From Pseudanabaena sp. lw0831 (GTDB lineage: Bacteria > Cyanobacteriota > Cyanobacteriia > Pseudanabaenales > Pseudanabaenaceae): a stretch of DNA of 64,000 nt. Made by a program: the position numbers and the translations under genes. Below the pieces are notes generated by a model, which saw only the letters and a list, made by a program, of their open reading frames with translations, had not been told where the DNA came from and searched no databases. The stretch spans positions 1-64,000 of the forward strand of contig NZ_BBJB01000051.1 of assembly GCF_016584665.1 (NCBI RefSeq). The letters are read 5' to 3'. Positions 40,028 to 54,016 of the stretch are shown here, one piece after another. Positions within the stretch are counted from its first letter, which is position 1; each line of letters opens with the position of its first letter.

Positions 40028-40068
40028 AAAGCATAAATGGCGGTGCGAAGCACCGCCATTTATGCTTT
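40028..40068. terminator. Hairpin terminator, 19-bp perfect arms, loop GAA
   Basis: AAAGCATAAATGGCGGTGC pairs with 40050-40068; apex GCGAAGC. The right arm overlaps the last bases of trpD, upstream on this strand. Confidence 0.88.
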
Positions 40069-41113
40069 ACTGCAAGAATTTTACCAATGCTTCTGCTTTT
40101 GACCATGCTGCACCACTTTTAAGGATTTCTGAGGCAAGGCTCACACTTTCTGCCCAAGTACTAGCAGCACCGCCAATTCTTAGGGCTAAGCCACTATTTA
40201 GAGCGACACAATCAGTTTGAGCTTTGCTGCCTTTGCCTTGCAAAACTGTACGTAAAATATCCGCGTTTTCTTGAACATTGCCACCCTTCAGACTCTCAAG
40301 TGGCGCAGAAGTTAATCCTAACTCTTGAGGAGAGATCGCTTCTTCAGTCACAATACCGTCACGCAAAAATGAAATATCAGTAAGATCGCCTAAACCTGCC
40401 TCATCCATTCCTTCTCGGCTATGTAATACTACAGCTTGCTGGCGATCAAGCAACCGTAAAGCTTCAGCGACAGTATGCGTTAAGGGCTTATTATAAACTC
40501 CTAAAACTTGAGCTGTAGGATGGAGCGGGTTGACTAAAGGCCCAATCAAGTTAAATACCGTGCGAACACCTAAGCTGCGTCGGATTGCTCCGACCGCTTT
40601 CATCGCAGGATGCCAACTTGGTGCAAACAGAAAGGTAATCCCCACCGCAGGCAAAGCTTCGTAAATCTTTTCCGTTGAAGTACTAAGGTGAATACCGATC
40701 GCTTCTAAAACATCCGCCGAACCAGAGCGACTAGAAACCGCCCGATTGCCATGTTTCGCCACAGGAATTCCCGCCGCCGCCACCACAAAAGCAACGGAAG
40801 TAGAAATATTAAAAGTCGAAGCGCCATCACCCCCAGTGCCACAGGTGTCAATCAAAGGCTTAGTGCGATCGACAATATGACCAAATTGATCTTTAAGTTT
40901 TTGCCCTTCGCTTTGAGATTGCAACACATTTGCCATGGCAGCTAATTCAGAAGCCTCGATCCCTTTAAATTGCAAAGCCGTCAAGATTGCCCCTGACAAC
41001 TCTGGTGCGATCGCTCCTTCTAACCAACCATGCATCAGTGCTGTAGCCTGTTCGCTCATTAGGGTTTGTCTATCCATAAGCTGCTTTAGCAGTTGAGACC
41101 AATTCTGTTCCAT
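40067..41113 (-). CDS. trpD: Anthranilate phosphoribosyltransferase
   Basis: A 348-residue enzyme that joins anthranilate to PRPP in tryptophan synthesis. Seen: [18 protein letters not shown] (PRPP loop), [20 protein letters not shown] and [15 protein letters not shown], with [11 protein letters not shown] later. ATG 41113 (MEQNWSQLL) fits the usual N-terminus better than the ATG 19 codons upstream. Not in a trp cluster, as is common in cyanobacteria. Confidence 0.95.
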
Positions 41114-41203
41114 AATCTCTTCTATATGACGCTGTGTATTGCTTACAAGGATACAATGCTTTGCGTTCAAACCCGAACAAAAAAAACAAAAATCGCTGAT
41201 ACG

Positions 41204-43342
41204 TTACACTGCCTTATTCTTTCTGTCAAATAGAACTACAAAAGTTTGGACAATCAACTTGAGATCGTACCAAATACTCCAATTTTTACGATATTCAATA
41301 TCGTAATTTACTACCTCGCCAAAAGTTCTCACATTAGAGCGTCCATTCACTTGCCACACGCCAGTAATTCCTGGTCTCACATCTAGACGATTCCATTCTG
41401 TATACCGTTCATCATGATATTCAACTTCTAATTCATAGGAGTTAATCTCATCAAAGGTGGGAGGACGAGTTCCGACTAAACTCATATCCCCGACCAAAAC
41501 ATTCCAAAATTGTGGAAATTCATCAAGACTGGTTTTTCTTAAGAATTTACCAATTTTGGTTACGCGTGGATCATCAGCATTCTTAAAGAATTTGCCACTT
41601 ACAGTCGTATCATCTCCATCAGCAATTGGAACGTTTGAACTTGCCTCAATCTGATTGTCAACTTTTATTTTAAGCTGCTCAGCATTCTGGACCATTGATC
41701 TAAATTTCCAAATTCGGAATGGCTTGCTCAATAGACCACAACGGATTTGTCCAAACAAAACATTACCTTTGCTTTCAACCATAATCGCGATCGCGATCGG
41801 AACAAATAAGACAGCAGTAAAACTTAAGCCAATTAGTGAGCCAACTATATCTATTAGCCTTTTAATAGGGTTGCGAACTGAAGGATGCACAGGTACACTA
41901 GGATCGATGTCGATAAAAGGGAAAAGAAATTTTAGGATTGGATAAAAGATCCTGAGAACAGGGATTTTCTTGAGTAATTGCTGTGTCCGAAATAGCAGCA
42001 AACCAGACATCGTAATATTTTTAACTTTAGTCCTTTGGATTGAATTAGAAAATCGAAAAGTATTGCTGGTTGGCTCAGTTATAAATAAATTACTAAGAGA
42101 AGATAGTCCAATCAAATCCCCAACAGCTTCACTAACACTCCACAAAGCCAATTTAGTTTTATTGGCTGTAGCCATCCTGAGACAGTTGGTTAAAGCTCCT
42201 AAGCCAGCACTATCTATAACTGTAGTATGACTCATATCGATCACAATCTTCTTATAGGATTCGTCAGTATTGCAAAGAGTTTGAAAATCAATCAAAAATT
42301 CTCTGGCTGTAGAAAACACCAATCTTTCGGGACTAAAGATGAATGCAATCTCATCAAAAGTGACAATTGAAGCTTGTTTGTAATCTCTATTTTGAGTTAT
42401 TTCATTATTACTTCCATCACTAACAGGAATGTAAACAGACTTAGAATATCGACTTGCGATCGCCCTACTTCTGACGACAATTAGGTCAAGCACATTTAGT
42501 TTCATTAATATCCATGCTGGCAAACCTATATCTTGAAAGCGAGTCTTTGATTCTATAAAAACAACTTTACTACCGCAAACCCACCTTGCAATAAGTAGAT
42601 AAGGAAGAGAAAATCCTGAGCCTGTACAAACAACTAGATCTGGTTTTTGACGAGGCACAACCCTAAAGGCTAGAACTACATTACGGATAAAATTTGCGAA
42701 GTTGTCTTTTACAGGAGCATATCCCCAATACCGAATAACATTCTCAATCTCTCTTTCGGTGGTATTCGTCCGTACAGATATCCATGAGCGATCGCTATAG
42801 TTTTCCCAAAAACTTTTGAGGCTTTGCATATATCGAAAATATCCACCCGCAGCACAGACAAGCATTAATTTCTGTGATGGATATCGATCTTTTAAATATT
42901 CACACAATTGAGTCTCATCAACTTTAGGAATTACTGTAGCTGTCTGTTGTAACTTGAGGAATTTGACTAAATCGCCTGGGGATCTAGCGATCGCCACCCC
43001 TTTGTGCTCAAATTCATCAGCAACTTCCATTTGACGATTATCAATATATTCTCTAAATCTATGTAACCGTGGCACTAGAACGTACGGCGTATCTTTATCT
43101 TCTAATAGTAGAGCCGTATTTTCATCGCAATGACTAATAATTAAACTGGCTCGATCAACAAAGTTCAAAAAATCTTGCTCAGATAAATTTCGATAAGCTG
43201 TAGAGCCATCAGGTAAATGCGTTGAAAAACCGTATTGGACTAATACCTCTTCATTAATTAGTTGGTACTTGATTAACAACTCTATCCAATGCATTAGAGC
43301 GTTAAATTGGTATTGTTCTGTCCCAACTGTGATTAAAAGCAT
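41204..43342 (-). CDS. Four-domain fusion: Alg13-like, Alg14-like, STAS, polyprenyl-phosphate sugar transferase
   Basis: A 712-residue protein. Residues 1-135 (MLLITVGTEQYQFNALMHWI) resemble Alg13/EpsF-like GT28 halves; 155-315 (LMLVCAAGGYFRYMQSL, VVCTGSGFSLPYLL) resemble Alg14; 325-425 is a STAS domain with VIDSAGLGAL (S378 the usual phosphorylation site); 493-712 is a WbaP/WcaJ-type initiating transferase with a membrane helix at about 498-521, KFRSM, the D607-E608 dyad in SLDEFPQ, and PGITGVWQV. One chain could load a sugar phosphate on polyprenyl phosphate and add the second sugar, with STAS regulation. That reading is inference; each domain call is from visible motifs. Confidence 0.85.
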   Translation of the reverse strand: MLLITVGTEQYQFNALMHWIELLIKYQLINEEVLVQYGFSTHLPDGSTAYRNLSEQDFLNFVDRASLIISHCDENTALLLEDKDTPYVLVPRLHRFREYIDNRQMEVADEFEHKGVAIARSPGDLVKFLKLQQTATVIPKVDETQLCEYLKDRYPSQKLMLVCAAGGYFRYMQSLKSFWENYSDRSWISVRTNTTEREIENVIRYWGYAPVKDNFANFIRNVVLAFRVVPRQKPDLVVCTGSGFSLPYLLIARWVCGSKVVFIESKTRFQDIGLPAWILMKLNVLDLIVVRSRAIASRYSKSVYIPVSDGSNNEITQNRDYKQASIVTFDEIAFIFSPERLVFSTAREFLIDFQTLCNTDESYKKIVIDMSHTTVIDSAGLGALTNCLRMATANKTKLALWSVSEAVGDLIGLSSLSNLFITEPTSNTFRFSNSIQRTKVKNITMSGLLLFRTQQLLKKIPVLRIFYPILKFLFPFIDIDPSVPVHPSVRNPIKRLIDIVGSLIGLSFTAVLFVPIAIAIMVESKGNVLFGQIRCGLLSKPFRIWKFRSMVQNAEQLKIKVDNQIEASSNVPIADGDDTTVSGKFFKNADDPRVTKIGKFLRKTSLDEFPQFWNVLVGDMSLVGTRPPTFDEINSYELEVEYHDERYTEWNRLDVRPGITGVWQVNGRSNVRTFGEVVNYDIEYRKNWSIWYDLKLIVQTFVVLFDRKNKAV

Positions 43343-43489: not shown

Positions 43490-43774
43490 ATGACAAAAGC
43501 AATTTGGAATGGTGCTGTCCTTGCGGAAAGCGATCGCTGTGAAGTCGTGGATGGCAACCAGTATTTTCCTGCCGATGCTTTGAATATGGAATATTTCAAG
43601 CCTAGCAATACGCATACAACTTGCGGCTGGAAAGGGGAAGCGAGCTATTACAATGTCGAAGTTAATGGCGAAACGAACAAAGATGCAGCTTGGTACTATC
43701 CTGAGCCAAAGGATGCGGCAAAACAGATTAAAGGTCATATTGCATTTTGGCGTGGTGTAAAAGTTCAACCATAG
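43490..43774 (+). CDS. DUF427 family protein
   Basis: A 94-residue protein covering the whole DUF427 fold: AIWNGAVLAESDRCEVVDGN, YFPADALNMEYF and the conserved CGWKGEASYYNV and GHIAFWRGVKV lines. Small beta barrel of unknown function, cytoplasmic. Single gene with a hairpin terminator after it. Confidence 0.92.
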   Translation: MTKAIWNGAVLAESDRCEVVDGNQYFPADALNMEYFKPSNTHTTCGWKGEASYYNVEVNGETNKDAAWYYPEPKDAAKQIKGHIAFWRGVKVQP

Positions 43775-43915: not shown

Positions 43916-45610
43916 TTATGAGTTTATTGCCTTGATATGGGCTTGGCGGAAAATGGGAGAATTGACTCGGTATATAGCGCTACGGGGTAAGACCCGCAAA
44001 ATTTCTTCGGTTGTGGTTATGCCAGCGTTGAGTTTATCGATCGCAGCTAGTCGAAATGAATTGAAGTCAATCTCATTAAGATAACGATTCATTTGGGTGA
44101 TCGTGCCTTCATAAATCATTTGGCGAAAAGCATCATCAATATCGATCAATTCGACCACAGCTTCGCGTCCAATATAACCTGTAAAAAAGCATTTTTCACA
44201 ACCTTTACCTTTACGCCAACGACTGGGATCGATATCTTCGCGATCAAGTCTGAGAGATTGCAGCTCTGACAAAGTGGGATGATGGGGTGCTGAGCAATGA
44301 GGGCAGTTTTTACGAATTAGACGCTGAGCGACCACACCCAATAAAGCATCGCTAATTAATCCCGGATCTGGTCCTAGATCTTTGAGTCTGGGGATCGCAC
44401 TAGCAGCATCGTTGGTGTGCATTGTCGATAGGACTAAATGTCCTGTTAAAGCAGCTCTCACCACGGTTTCAGCGGTTTCAGGATCGCGGACTTCGCCCAC
44501 CATCACAATATCAGGGTCTTGACGTAAAATTGCACGTAATCCAGCAGCAAAAGTCATGCCTGCGGGTTCACAGACTTGGGTTTGGGTGATATTTGGCAAG
44601 ATATATTCGACAGGATCTTCAACGGTGATCACGTTGACATGTTCTTGGGCGATCGCCTGCAAACTTGTATAAAGGGTACTAGTTTTGCCTGAACCCGTTG
44701 GGCCAGTCATGATGATCAGTCCTTGGGGCTGTCGTAACCAACTGTCGTAAATTTTCAGAGTGCGATCGCTAAATCCTAAATTTTCTAAATGATTCGAGAA
44801 AGGATTGTCGCGAGGCAAAAGCCTAATTACTGCTTTTTCACCGCAGACACAGGGCAATGTGCTCACTCGCATATCGAGATTAAGATGCAGACTCTCATCG
44901 CTGGTATATTCTTTGCCAATGCGACCATCTTGAGGACGACGACTATCGGCGATATCCATGTCGGACATCACTTTCAGGGCGACAATAATTTTGCGGCTAA
45001 TTTCGAGGGGCAAGGTTTTGATATCGCGCAAAATGCCATCAATACGAAAGCGGACTCGTAAACCAGTGGGAGTTGGCTCTAGATGAATGTCACTTGCCCG
45101 ATGTTGCAAAGCGATCGACATTAAGGCATTAATCCGACGGGTTTGATCGACAGCTTGAGACAAATAAAGATCCGTAGCTTCGACAATATCAACTTGCTCA
45201 GTTTCCCCCGTAAGCGGATTGATCGACTGCGCCGAATGGATCTCGTTAGGATTAGGAATATTTTGGCGGCGAAACCATGTGCGATAACTAGTCGTTGTAA
45301 TCTTGATCGTTTTGATATCAGTCAAGGTGCGATCGCTGATCAACTTAATGTGTTCATCAGTTAAAGGCTTGGGACTACCAATATAAAAACAGTTGCGCCA
45401 TAGCAATAGCGGAATTACTGGCGGCAAGATGCTGCGATCTTCAAATTCTCGAAAAAACCGGTGCGTGAGATCTTGGTCAAGCCAAGATAAATGAACATTG
45501 CCTTCAATATCTACTAAAAACCGCAATGCTTCTTCGCAGGTCGCGATGTTGCCATGGCGCAGTCTTTTCCAGACTGATTCCCCTACTGAATGCCCCGATG
45601 TTTCATTCAT
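43916..45610 (-). CDS. GspE/PilB-type secretion or type IV pilus ATPase
   Basis: A 564-residue ATPase. An N-terminal domain is followed by the conserved RASDIHLEPTPTGLRVRFRIDG line, Walker A GPTGSGKTST at about 303-312, Asp box TVEDPVEYILP, Walker B DPDIVMVGEVRD and the His box TGHLVLSTMHTND. Two CxxC pairs (CPHC, CEKC) form the C-terminal zinc site of GspE/PilB. It would power pilus extension or pseudopilus assembly. No pilC or pilT is adjacent, so it may be a second pilB-like copy. Confidence 0.92.
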   Translation of the reverse strand: MNETSGHSVGESVWKRLRHGNIATCEEALRFLVDIEGNVHLSWLDQDLTHRFFREFEDRSILPPVIPLLLWRNCFYIGSPKPLTDEHIKLISDRTLTDIKTIKITTTSYRTWFRRQNIPNPNEIHSAQSINPLTGETEQVDIVEATDLYLSQAVDQTRRINALMSIALQHRASDIHLEPTPTGLRVRFRIDGILRDIKTLPLEISRKIIVALKVMSDMDIADSRRPQDGRIGKEYTSDESLHLNLDMRVSTLPCVCGEKAVIRLLPRDNPFSNHLENLGFSDRTLKIYDSWLRQPQGLIIMTGPTGSGKTSTLYTSLQAIAQEHVNVITVEDPVEYILPNITQTQVCEPAGMTFAAGLRAILRQDPDIVMVGEVRDPETAETVVRAALTGHLVLSTMHTNDAASAIPRLKDLGPDPGLISDALLGVVAQRLIRKNCPHCSAPHHPTLSELQSLRLDREDIDPSRWRKGKGCEKCFFTGYIGREAVVELIDIDDAFRQMIYEGTITQMNRYLNEIDFNSFRLAAIDKLNAGITTTEEILRVLPRSAIYRVNSPIFRQAHIKAINS

Positions 45611-49664: not shown

Positions 49665-51089
49665 ATGACTGTAACTATTGCAAAATCAGCATCTTGGGCA
49701 AAGGTGATCGCTAAACCAGCGACAGAGTTTCCCCTTACCCAAATCTCGACTATTTCAGGGACGATTCCCGAAAACCTCAAAGGCTCTCTTTATCGCAATG
49801 GTCCTGGAAGATTGGAGCGTGGAGGTATCCAAGTTGGACATTGGTTTGATGGCGATGGCGCAATTCTTGCTGTGCATTTTGCTGAAGGACAGGCTCGTGC
49901 TACTTATCGATATGTCCAAACCAAAGGATATTTGGAAGAAGAACGTGCCGATAAATTGATTTACGGAAATTATGGTATGACCGCCACAGGTTCATGGTGG
50001 CAACGTTTCGGTAAGGCTTCTAAGAATGTGGCAAATACTTCTGTAATTGCTCTCTCTGACAAGCTGCTTACTTTGTGGGAGGGAGGATTGCCTCATGCTT
50101 TAGATTTGGAAACTCTGGAAACTTACGGTTTAGAGAATCTCGAAGGTTTAGAGAACCATTTGCCCTATTCCGCTCACCCTAAGCGAGATCCAAAGACTGG
50201 CGAGATTTTCAATTTTGGAGTTTCCTATGGCAAGAATGCGACTTTAAATATTTATCGTAGCGATCGCAATGGCAAGCTGATCAAAAAGAGTCAGACAAAT
50301 CTTCAAGGATTATCGATGGTGCATGACTTTGTAATGGCAGGTGATTATCTGATTTTCTGTGTGCCACCACTACGGATGAATGTATTTCCTGTATTGCTAA
50401 ATCTCCAAAGCTATAGTGAATCCTTGCAATGGAAGCCCCAAGAAGGAACGGAGATTTTAGTGTTTAATCGCCACAATCTTGAATTGGTCAGTCGCAGCAA
50501 AGCCGAACCTTGGTTTCAGTGGCATTTTGGCAATGGCTACAGCGATCGCGATGGCAATCTTGTCTTTGATTTAGTGTGCTATCCAGACTTTGCGACCAAT
50601 CAATATCTCAAAGAAGTTGCTTCGGGTAAAACGAAAACCGTTGCCAAGGGAACTCTCTGGCAAATGCGCCTCAACCCAACCACAGGCGAATTTCTGGAGT
50701 CTTCGCAATTATGCGATCGCGGTTGTGATTTTCCTAGTGTCGCGCCTTCACAAGTTGGGCAAAACTCTCGCTATACTTATCTCTCTGTGCATCGCCCCAA
50801 TGCAGTCATTAATCAAGAAATATTTGGTGCGATCGCACGTTATGACTACCAAACTCATACTCTCACCGAAGCCAATCTCGGTACAAATCGCTATCCGATG
50901 GAGCCAATTTTCGCGCCTGATCTATCCAATCCTGATACTGGTTGGGTGATCACCGTTGTGTTTGATGGCGATCGCGAATGTTCAGAAGTATGGGTATTTG
51001 ATAGCGATCGTATAGATGGCGAACCAGTTTGTCGTTTATCTCTACCCAGTATTGTACCGATGGGTTTTCATGGGACTTGGCGATCGTAA
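49665..51089 (+). CDS. Carotenoid cleavage oxygenase (RPE65/ACO family)
   Basis: A 474-residue seven-bladed propeller oxygenase. Iron ligands H171, H220, H287 and H469 align with the four ligands of Synechocystis apocarotenal oxygenase, and GSLYRNGPGRLERGG and HWFDGDGAI are the usual N-terminal lines. It should cleave a (apo)carotenoid double bond, giving retinal or another apocarotenal. Whether its substrate is a C40 carotenoid or an apocarotenal is not shown by sequence. Confidence 0.93.
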   Translation: MTVTIAKSASWAKVIAKPATEFPLTQISTISGTIPENLKGSLYRNGPGRLERGGIQVGHWFDGDGAILAVHFAEGQARATYRYVQTKGYLEEERADKLIYGNYGMTATGSWWQRFGKASKNVANTSVIALSDKLLTLWEGGLPHALDLETLETYGLENLEGLENHLPYSAHPKRDPKTGEIFNFGVSYGKNATLNIYRSDRNGKLIKKSQTNLQGLSMVHDFVMAGDYLIFCVPPLRMNVFPVLLNLQSYSESLQWKPQEGTEILVFNRHNLELVSRSKAEPWFQWHFGNGYSDRDGNLVFDLVCYPDFATNQYLKEVASGKTKTVAKGTLWQMRLNPTTGEFLESSQLCDRGCDFPSVAPSQVGQNSRYTYLSVHRPNAVINQEIFGAIARYDYQTHTLTEANLGTNRYPMEPIFAPDLSNPDTGWVITVVFDGDRECSEVWVFDSDRIDGEPVCRLSLPSIVPMGFHGTWRS

Positions 51090-52486: not shown

Positions 52487-54016
52487 ATGCAGAATTCACT
52501 AAAAATCAAACTGGTTTCAGGCTCCCATCTTATTACCTTTATCAGCCTTTCTTTAGGATTTAGTGGGTTATTGTTTGGAGCCTCAGCTTGGAATGTCTTT
52601 TCCACATATCAAGCTTTTGACAAAGCGATCGCTAACCAATTTAAATTACAAAATTTGAGCAACCAAATTATTTACTACGATGAAGTGCTAACTATGTCAG
52701 CGCGAATGTACGCTGGGACAGGCGAGCCGAAATGGGAATCTCGTTACAATCAGGTTGTGCCGCAGTTAGAAATCACGCTCAAGCAAATTATCGAACAAAC
52801 TCCAAATACTTATAATGCAAATGCCAAAAAGACTGATGAGGCTAATCTAAAGCTTGTTGATTTGGAGACCAAATCGTTTGAATTAGTTCGTCAAGGCAAA
52901 ACTTCAGAGGCAATGCAGATTTTATCGGGGACTGAGTATGAATCTCTAAAACAAATCTACTCCGATGGCATATTAACAACTCGAAATGCGATATCACTGG
53001 AAACTGAAAACAGCCTCACCCGCTATCGCCAGTTTTTGTTTCAATCTTTGTTGCTTGCAGGATTGAGTTTGCCGATTTTATTAGTAACAGCCACGATCAT
53101 TATTTTGCGAGTTAAGGGGTTTGTACAGGAGCGCAACCAAGCCCAACTTTCTTTACAAGAGTTAAATCAACAACTAGAAACTCGAGTTGAAAAAAGAACC
53201 AAAGATCTAAAGTCAGCTAACTCTAAAATCACCTATTTGAACGAGCAGTTGCAGGAAGAAAACCTGCGAATGAGTTCTGAACTGAATGTGACTCGGCGAT
53301 TACAACAGATGATGCTCCCGCTGGATGAAGAACTGGAAACTATTAAGGAGCTTGATATAGCAGGATTTATGGAACCATCAAATGAAGTTGGTGGGGACTA
53401 TTACGATGTTTTACATCACAATGGGCGAGTCAAAATTGGGATTGGAGATGTCACTGGACATGGTTTAGAAAGTGGTGTTTTGATGATCATGGCTCAAACG
53501 GCAGTGCTGACTATGAGCGTTTTACAGGAAAAAGATCCTATTCGGGTTCTTAAAGCTTTGAACACTGTATTGTATGAAAATGTTACGAGGATGAATTCCG
53601 ACAAAAATATGACGCTTCTGTTACTTGATTATTTTCAAGGAAACCTGAGTTTAGTCGGACAACATGAAGAGGTAATAGTAGTCAGAGCGGATGGGACAGT
53701 AGAGCGCATCGATACCAATGATTTGGGGTTTCCGCTTGGATTAGAGGCTGATATTAGTTCATTTATTATGCAAGCTCAAATCAATCTTAACCCCGAAGAT
53801 ATTGTCGTACTCTATACGGATGGTATCACTGAGGCAGAAAATCCAAATCGCCAGTTTTATGGGCTAGAACGTTTATGTCAGCTTGTTCAAAATCATCGCC
53901 AAGAATCTGCTCAGTCAATTTGTGAAGCTATTATTCAGAATCTCAAGAATTTTATCGGTTTAAGTAGAGTTTATGACGATATAACACTCCTCGTGATCAA
54001 ACAGCTTCAATACTAA
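52487..54016 (+). CDS. Membrane receptor with RsbU-like PP2C phosphatase output
   Basis: A 509-residue protein. Two helices (about 13-35 and 180-205) bracket an extracytoplasmic four-helix sensor. A coiled coil (about 215-275) leads to a SpoIIE/PP2C domain with NEVGGDYYDV, GIGDVTGHGLESGVLMIM and VVLYTDGITEAENP, the metal-binding aspartates of RsbU-type phosphatases. Such proteins dephosphorylate anti-anti-sigma (STAS) partners. The only STAS domain in the window is in the 41204-43342 fusion; a link is speculation. Confidence 0.92.
   Translation: MQNSLKIKLVSGSHLITFISLSLGFSGLLFGASAWNVFSTYQAFDKAIANQFKLQNLSNQIIYYDEVLTMSARMYAGTGEPKWESRYNQVVPQLEITLKQIIEQTPNTYNANAKKTDEANLKLVDLETKSFELVRQGKTSEAMQILSGTEYESLKQIYSDGILTTRNAISLETENSLTRYRQFLFQSLLLAGLSLPILLVTATIIILRVKGFVQERNQAQLSLQELNQQLETRVEKRTKDLKSANSKITYLNEQLQEENLRMSSELNVTRRLQQMMLPLDEELETIKELDIAGFMEPSNEVGGDYYDVLHHNGRVKIGIGDVTGHGLESGVLMIMAQTAVLTMSVLQEKDPIRVLKALNTVLYENVTRMNSDKNMTLLLLDYFQGNLSLVGQHEEVIVVRADGTVERIDTNDLGFPLGLEADISSFIMQAQINLNPEDIVVLYTDGITEAENPNRQFYGLERLCQLVQNHRQESAQSICEAIIQNLKNFIGLSRVYDDITLLVIKQLQY

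Follow-up and report, generated by a model that had tools for sequence, protein, structure and literature searches.

The window analysed here, a stretch of 64,000 nucleotides from Pseudanabaena sp. lw0831 (contig NZ_BBJB01000051.1, positions 1 to 64,000), carries at 41204..43342 on the minus strand an open reading frame (ORF) that starts with ATG, encodes 712 amino acids and contains no internal stops. From the N- to the C-terminus, the encoded protein is composed of an Alg13-like domain, an Alg14-like domain, a STAS domain and an initiating sugar-phosphate transferase, i.e. a phosphoglycosyl transferase (PGT). This is the order proposed in a preliminary description of the DNA, made from the sequence alone, and it was borne out by Pfam, NCBIfam and structure matches. 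Fusions of this kind fall into three groups, namely the Pseudanabaena paralogues A, to which the window copy belongs, the Pseudanabaena paralogues B, and group O from Oscillatoria/Leptolyngbya. The parts of the window copy, with the ratio of nonsynonymous to synonymous substitution rates (dN/dS) where it supports a feature, are as follows.

41204..43342, minus strand: clade A fusion, complete four-domain protein of 712 aa (ORF, Pfam, NCBIfam, structure match)
42923..43342, minus strand: Alg13/PssE-like half, GT28-type, residues 1-140 (Pfam below threshold; NCBIfam PssE, 5.1e-14; alignment with separate Alg13 genes)
43112..43132, minus strand: altered glycine loop HCDENTA, residues 71-77 (clade B and split Alg13 genes next to an Alg14 gene have GEG or GQG)
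42413..42895, minus strand: Alg14/PssD-like half, residues 150-310 (Pfam, 3.7e-9; N-terminal half of MurG, Z 14.8)
42839..42847, minus strand: GGY, residues 166-168, replacing the GGH acceptor motif (alignment)
42053..42385, minus strand: STAS domain, residues 320-430 (Pfam, 5e-10; TM1442, Z 16.7; RsbV, Z 16.4)
42209..42211, minus strand: S378, predicted phospho-acceptor position, in D-S-A-G (alignment)
41888..42046, minus strand: linker with helices, residues 433-485, under strong conservation in clade A (dN/dS 0.02-0.09 where computable; helices within 433-478 in the structure model)
41228..41863, minus strand: initiating sugar-1-phosphate transferase (monotopic PGT, Bac_transf), residues 494-705 (Pfam, WbaP/PglC fold)
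41519..41524, minus strand: D607-E608, Asp-Glu pair of the PGT, intact (alignment)

Pfam placed Bac_transf (residues 494-705, E 1.7e-63), STAS (residues 330-426, E 5e-10) and Alg14 (residues 216-305, E 3.7e-9) above their curated cut-offs. Glyco_tran_28_C/Alg13 at residues 1-125 remained just below threshold (E 0.002; 18.6 vs 22 bits), with support coming from the NCBIfam models PssE (Alg13-like, 5.1e-14) and PssD (Alg14-like, 3.4e-17), both matched at scores under their equivalog cut-offs; the Alg13 cut-off was cleared by the paralogue of the protein in its own genome (4.2e-12). The AlphaFold model of the 712-aa protein had a mean predicted local distance difference test (pLDDT) score of 81.4 and a predicted template modelling (pTM) score of 0.65. 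Structure comparison, for which matches were also sought with Foldseek, revealed residues 484-707 to resemble WbaP (Z 19.3) and PglC (Z 18.6), residues 320-426 to resemble TM1442 (Z 16.7) and the RsbV chain of RsbV/RsbW (Z 16.4), and residues 157-307 to resemble the N-terminal half of MurG (Z 14.8). By its domain and its PglC/WbaP fold, the protein is a PGT of the Bac_transf type. Monotopic PGTs are characterised by a catalytic Asp-Glu pair and a re-entrant membrane helix; the pair is intact in 18/18 clade A proteins, and a helix predicted at residues 492-523 of the model is a candidate for the membrane helix. The Alg13/Alg14 part is, as judged from these matches, homologous by descent to GT28-type transferases. 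In the STAS domain, S378 directly follows D377 in the D-S-A-G motif, the predicted phospho-acceptor position, in agreement with the preliminary description.

A search of 386 genomes of the phylum found the fusion in 3/3 genomes of the window's genus, with two copies in the focal genome, two in G344 and one full copy in G280. The second focal-genome copy lies on another contig and is 46% identical over residues 1-434. Scanning a genome collection returned 57 loci, and the four-domain order was present in Pseudanabaena and close cyanobacteria, Oscillatoria sp. PCC 10802, O. princeps, Leptolyngbya FACHB-36, UBA11370, Oscillatoria sp. Prado101 and CRU_2_3; in Stenomitos frigidus, just the Alg13, Alg14 and STAS domains are present. 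In a tree built by a quick search from 79 rows with the Alg13, Alg14 and STAS columns and containing long branches, all 42 distinct fusions (41 of them with four domains), which are cyanobacterial, formed one clade with an SH-aLRT support of 100. Within it, support was likewise 100 for clade A, with 18 rows and a long stem branch (0.7), and for clade B, with 17 rows; the 7 rows of group O, at 27, do not make up a supported clade. Counted among the 42 are L222 (first three domains, ending near a contig end), L220 and L215 (both cut by contig ends) and L221 (Alg13 part broken over two frames), and the clade A count leaves out L197, a repeat of L038. The recurrence of the same order in many independent assemblies, together with the second copy in the same genome, rules out an assembly artefact as the source of the fusion as well as one unique to a species or an assembly.

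When tallied by assembly prefix, both Pseudanabaena paralogues were present in 12 assemblies, A only in 4 and B only in 3; by direct search, both were found in 6/7 named genomes. One of the three assemblies with B only also yielded a fragment, L244, that is 66% identical to window residues 1-93 and has no domain-bearing ORF; the clade B copy of this assembly (L203) is intact. The fragment looks like a broken or cut clade A-like copy and enters no count.

The fusion is a joining, in a single clade, of genes that are neighbours elsewhere. The split cassette has the order Alg14, Alg13, STAS::PGT, HATPase kinase and STAS, followed in several Nostoc-type loci by a response-regulator-SpoIIE gene, and at locus L041 it adjoins genes for Poly_export, a flippase, GT2 and a pyruvyl transferase. 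An intermediate form, Alg13-STAS-PGT, was seen at L054.

Alignment of the Alg13 and Alg14 halves revealed that the window copy has HCDEN vs HCGEG in the Alg13 loop and that the His of the Alg14 GGH motif is changed to Tyr. This His was found in 0/18 clade A proteins (Tyr 17, Ala 1), 17/17 of clade B and 7/7 of group O; the counts for the GEG loop were likewise 0/18 (second Gly kept in 5), 17/17 and 7/7. The first loop Gly and the Alg14 His are both gone in 18/18 clade A proteins, whose GEG triplet ends variably in N, S, A, D, G or V. Split Alg13 genes with an Alg14 neighbour had an intact loop in 38/38 cases (two pairs repeat a genome), and GGH was intact in 37/38 of these Alg14 neighbours, while three split Alg13 genes with no Alg14 gene beside them (L047, L049, L054) have lost the loop. 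Group O presents the mirror image of clade A, with the PGT pair lost in 5/5 scorable proteins and the Alg13/Alg14 motifs kept in 7/7, so that its PGT looks dead by its residues. A separate full-length STAS::PGT gene, with the PGT pair kept, was present in four of the seven group O genomes. The Oscillatoria-type loci L216 and L217 (4001-6001) have Glu-Gln in place of the PGT Asp-Glu together with Alg13/Alg14 halves that look intact, the reverse of what the window copy shows.

Comparison of the window copy with nine relatives gave, where computable, dN/dS values of 0.05-0.11 for Alg13, 0.10-0.15 for Alg14, 0.03-0.09 for STAS and 0.04-0.08 for the PGT, with a maximum of 0.152 for any domain; many of the underlying dS values are close to or beyond saturation, and for several pairs no dS could be computed. 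An opposite-frame, spurious ORF of L206 (24% identity) was left out, and the selection measured on the fused halves refers to clade A only. The purifying values imply that the changed Alg13 and Alg14 halves of clade A are maintained; they would be kept as a structural or regulatory module.

These data bear on three accounts of the fused transferase halves. According to the preliminary description, the window protein would be a bifunctional enzyme that makes lipid-PP-sugar, adds the second sugar and is switched by the RsbU-like phosphatase at 52487. All four domains are indeed present, the split genes stand together in polysaccharide loci, and clade B retains all motifs, which makes a two-step enzyme plausible for clade B. 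For the window copy, however, the proposal fails because the Alg14 His and the GEG loop are changed throughout clade A; Agl24 with the H14A exchange is reported to be inactive, and the equivalent His change also inactivates MurG (PMC8993221). Judged by these residues, the Alg13-Alg14 part of clade A has probably lost catalysis. The phosphatase that was named fared no better: among five relatives searched, G393 alone has a close homologue in the vicinity of the fusion (about 7.4 kb), the best match in the other four being far away, on another contig, or weak; this rules out a conserved linkage between the two genes. The bifunctional enzyme is accordingly considered very improbable. It is also improbable, if slightly less so, that clade A with a changed acceptor or donor still transfers sugar via non-canonical residues. 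Such transfer would fit the purifying selection on both halves, the second loop Gly kept in 5/18 and the archaeal homologues of pseudomurein makers, which are described as lacking the His as well (PMC8993221), but the joint loss of the first loop Gly and the His, along with the variable last GEG position, looks like relaxed chemistry. That the clade A genes are decaying relics without function might be suggested by the two lost catalytic motifs, the long stem branch and the partial match L244; yet 18 genomes have kept a frame of 708-730 aa, the PGT pair has stayed intact and most of the neighbourhood is conserved. Functionless decay was rejected on the computable dN/dS values (at most 0.152 in the nine relatives, several dS being saturated), and we give it hardly any credence.

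The STAS domain was assessed by means of the separate STAS::PGT genes, which are widespread. Outside the fusions, the STAS Ser was present in 112/112 STAS::PGT rows; these contain two repeats (L223 = L042, L225 = L046), include the Alg13-STAS-PGT form of L054, and in one row have no letters at the PGT pair. The linkage analysis drew on 85 genomes from beyond the focal genus, with 95 full-length STAS::PGT genes recovered and L147 left out. At this locus (L147:7253-8283, G175), STAS and PGT lie in two separate reading frames, by a frameshift or a true split. An RsbW-like HATPase gene was found within 3 kb of 39/95 STAS::PGT genes vs 0/40 STAS-less PGT loci (picked from a larger list; 33 genomes). 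The linked HATPase gene lay downstream on the same strand in 37/39 cases and overlapped or came within 100 bp in 29/39, and the HATPase profile, when compared with the PDB, matched RsbW best (4.9e-12), followed by SpoIIAB (0.002).

In the reading we favour, and which we hold to be somewhat more likely than not, the protein is a fused polysaccharide-initiation cassette whose STAS::PGT core is under an Rsb-type switch and whose clade A copy acts as an initiating transferase only. The part that does the work would consist of STAS and a monotopic PGT in one chain, the PGT loading the lipid carrier with sugar-1-phosphate. An Rsb-type partner switch would most likely dock on the STAS domain and have it as its substrate: an RsbW/SpoIIAB-like kinase phosphorylates the STAS Ser, a receiver-SpoIIE phosphatase takes the phosphate off, and the STAS state determines how active the PGT is or how it assembles. 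Addition of the next sugar would originally have been the task of the Alg13-Alg14 part, whose key motifs remain in group O and clade B; in clade A, its catalysis would very probably have been lost and the module retained, leaving the first step only. Catalytic status, phosphorylation and the effect of phosphorylation on the PGT are, throughout, what we infer. From the preliminary description, the general idea that STAS controls the initiating transferase thus survives as worth testing, and the phosphatase that it named does not.

Several findings count against this reading. The phospho-acceptor position is not strict in the fusions. Of the 18 clade A proteins, 12 have Ser, 5 have Gly and one has Thr, and Ser is present in 4/7 of group O; phospho-control may therefore have been lost or relaxed in the fused proteins, and it may be weakened in the window copy. 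The full cassette is a minority arrangement, since partner genes lie near few STAS::PGT genes: Alg13 was found within 3 kb of 14/95 and both Alg genes of 11/95, a stand-alone STAS gene within 3 kb of 9/95, and SpoIIE within 5 kb of 7/95. The linkage to HATPase is confined to part of the set, 56/95 STAS::PGT genes having no kinase gene within 3 kb, 45 of them among the 50 genes of family f7 (linkage in f7, 5/50; outside f7, 34/45), and its Fisher p of 6e-8 was computed without correction for phylogeny. Among the HATPase hits, 50/58 fitted the N-box, 48/58 the G1 and 31/58 the G2 pattern, so some of them may not be active kinases. Finally, neither of the two kinase genes in the focal genome is linked to the fusion. 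The non-strict Ser and the f7 proteins, which are mostly without a kinase neighbour, would also suit a STAS domain with a structural or docking role (dimerisation, membrane placement) and no phospho-switch, the adjoining HATPase and STAS genes regulating the transcription of polysaccharide genes instead. The STAS domain of SulP-type transporters is said to have other roles, in stability and function (PMC8256260). The invariant Ser outside the fusions and the tight placement of the kinase gene, which is absent from all STAS-less PGT loci, speak against this explanation, which we regard as unlikely but the most serious of the alternatives. A wider claim remains tentative, with chances a little short of even: that across cyanobacteria an Rsb-type kinase and phosphatase act directly, without a sigma factor, on the STAS domain of the polysaccharide-starting enzyme, including those of the heterocyst envelope and synechan, and that in the fused lineage each half was inactivated in a different group and kept in a non-catalytic role.

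As to candidate regulators, the focal genome encodes two RsbW-like kinases, on contigs C95 and C74. On C74 (L059:216-2043), a receiver-SpoIIE phosphatase gene is divergent from the RsbW-like kinase gene. These two kinase genes and the C74 phosphatase are better candidates for regulating the fusions than the 52487 gene, and kinase homologues were found in 12/12 relatives searched. By its coordinates, a pair similar to that of C74 occurs in G393:C16 and G395:C17.

Two known cyanobacterial genes can be set beside the fusion. On plasmid pSYSM of Synechocystis sp. PCC 6803, a sugar transferase gene (L277:9995-10948) encodes STAS (PF01740, 1.7e-9, D-S-A-A) and Bac_transf. It was taken as xssP, because it adjoins NACHT, response-regulator and sensor genes, and is thus probably the priming transferase of synechan. 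Its product is 51.6% identical to a Nostoc-type STAS::PGT over 95% of it; like the focal core, it has STAS and Bac_transf in one chain, but unlike the fusion it has no Alg13/Alg14 part. No RsbW-type kinase is named among the annotated neighbours shown for this gene. Deletion of xssP is reported to abolish bloom formation and to suppress the accumulation of exopolysaccharide, and the word STAS is absent from the main text of that paper (PMC8205485). The other gene, all4160 of Anabaena sp. PCC 7120, is listed in a review as a glycosyltransferase carrying STAS at its N-terminus (PMC8256260), and heterocyst envelope polysaccharide synthesis is reported to depend on it (PMC4390870). It shares STAS plus glycosyltransferase with the focal protein, Alg13/Alg14 being unmentioned in the text available, and this likeness is one of description, not of sequence. 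The fusion of STAS to a glycosyltransferase is therefore already known. In the literature searched, outside which most subscription papers lie, no paper on a PGT-STAS fusion was found, nor one joining a STAS domain, a sugar transferase and cyanobacteria; a published link between the kinase and STAS::PGT may still exist.

Among the f7 STAS::PGT genes without a kinase neighbour, e.g. L075:7408-8457, a product of exactly 349 aa was seen in 30/45, and these 349-aa proteins are possibly the all4160 lineage. Outside the Cyanobacteria, the search covered plasmids: with a STAS::PGT query, 45 records had at least 80% query cover among the matches listed, and the best five (95%) were all from Synechocystis. 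One of the other 40, from Burkholderia, has CoA_binding_3 and no STAS.

Regarding regulation, the RsbU/RsbV/RsbW switches, HmpUWV of Nostoc and SypA/SypE of Vibrio combine STAS-Ser, HATPase and SpoIIE, as several split loci do; unlike in these switches, the STAS domain of the focal family is covalently joined to the enzyme. The targets of HmpV and SypA are called unknown or undefined in the texts available (PMC8256260, PMC6495340, PMC10120452). In SiaABCD and HsbA/BgrV, the phosphorylation state of a STAS or STAS-like protein controls an enzyme, as proposed here, but the enzymes are diguanylate cyclases and the proteins are separate; the STAS-like SiaC is described as switching the enzyme SiaD (PMC8457831). 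Post-translational control of an initiating PGT, EpsZ, by EpsW is reported for Myxococcus xanthus (PMC12802240). This resembles the present case as a small regulatory protein acting on an initiating PGT, and differs from it in that EpsW is a response regulator and EpsZ a large monoPGT; the paper makes no mention of STAS in its main text. PssD/PssE, EpsE/EpsF, Alg14/Alg13 and MurG consist of the same two half-domains as the focal protein, the Alg14 half of which resembles the MurG fold. Compared with MurG, the Alg13-Alg14 order of the fusion is reversed, and the catalytic motifs are lost in clade A; a reversed fusion is on record for Entamoeba (PMC8993221).

How the start of polysaccharide synthesis is timed on a shared lipid carrier is incompletely understood, a point raised for PGT pathways in PMC12802240. 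Since the starting enzyme carries a fused STAS domain whose Ser is invariant outside the fusions, and a kinase gene is nearby in 39 of the 95 cases, direct phospho-control becomes testable; such STAS-on-PGT regulatory logic was not found in the literature searched. If true, it would place a phospho-switch on the first committed step of surface polysaccharide assembly, and initiating transferases, as a concrete candidate class, may then be what HmpV, SypA and other stand-alone STAS outputs act on. The opposite catalytic losses in two fused groups further suggest that such chains can keep dead enzyme modules.

Around the fusion, the following genes were located in the window.

40067..41170, minus strand: TrpD-like neighbour carrying both domains of TrpD, outside the system (beside 13/17 other clade A fusions)
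43490-43774, plus strand: DUF427 gene, opposite to the fusion (clade A neighbourhood)
43916-45610, minus strand: T2SSE (type II/IV secretion) ATPase gene (clade A neighbourhood)
52487..54016, plus strand: SpoIIE-type phosphatase (place near the fusion not conserved)

The surroundings of clade A are largely conserved and of a non-polysaccharide kind, with T2SSE, the opposite DUF427 gene, the fusion and then TrpD, which we take to be an anthranilate phosphoribosyltransferase. Among the remaining 17 clade A loci, 14 have T2SSE, 16 have DUF427 and 13 have TrpD; of those lacking a T2SSE hit, L038 and L191 start near the fusion and L196 has 4 kb upstream without T2SSE. In view of these common neighbours, a conserved tie between clade A and a polysaccharide operon was rejected. 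The clade B copy of the focal genome adjoins a Poly_export gene. A T2SSE paralogue was seen near the fusion in 2/17 clade B loci (L039:11599-13245 and L243:808-2451), one of them in the focal genome, as if the ATPase and the fusion had been duplicated together. Further along the window, at 49665-51089 on the plus strand, lies an RPE65-type, carotenoid oxygenase-like gene.

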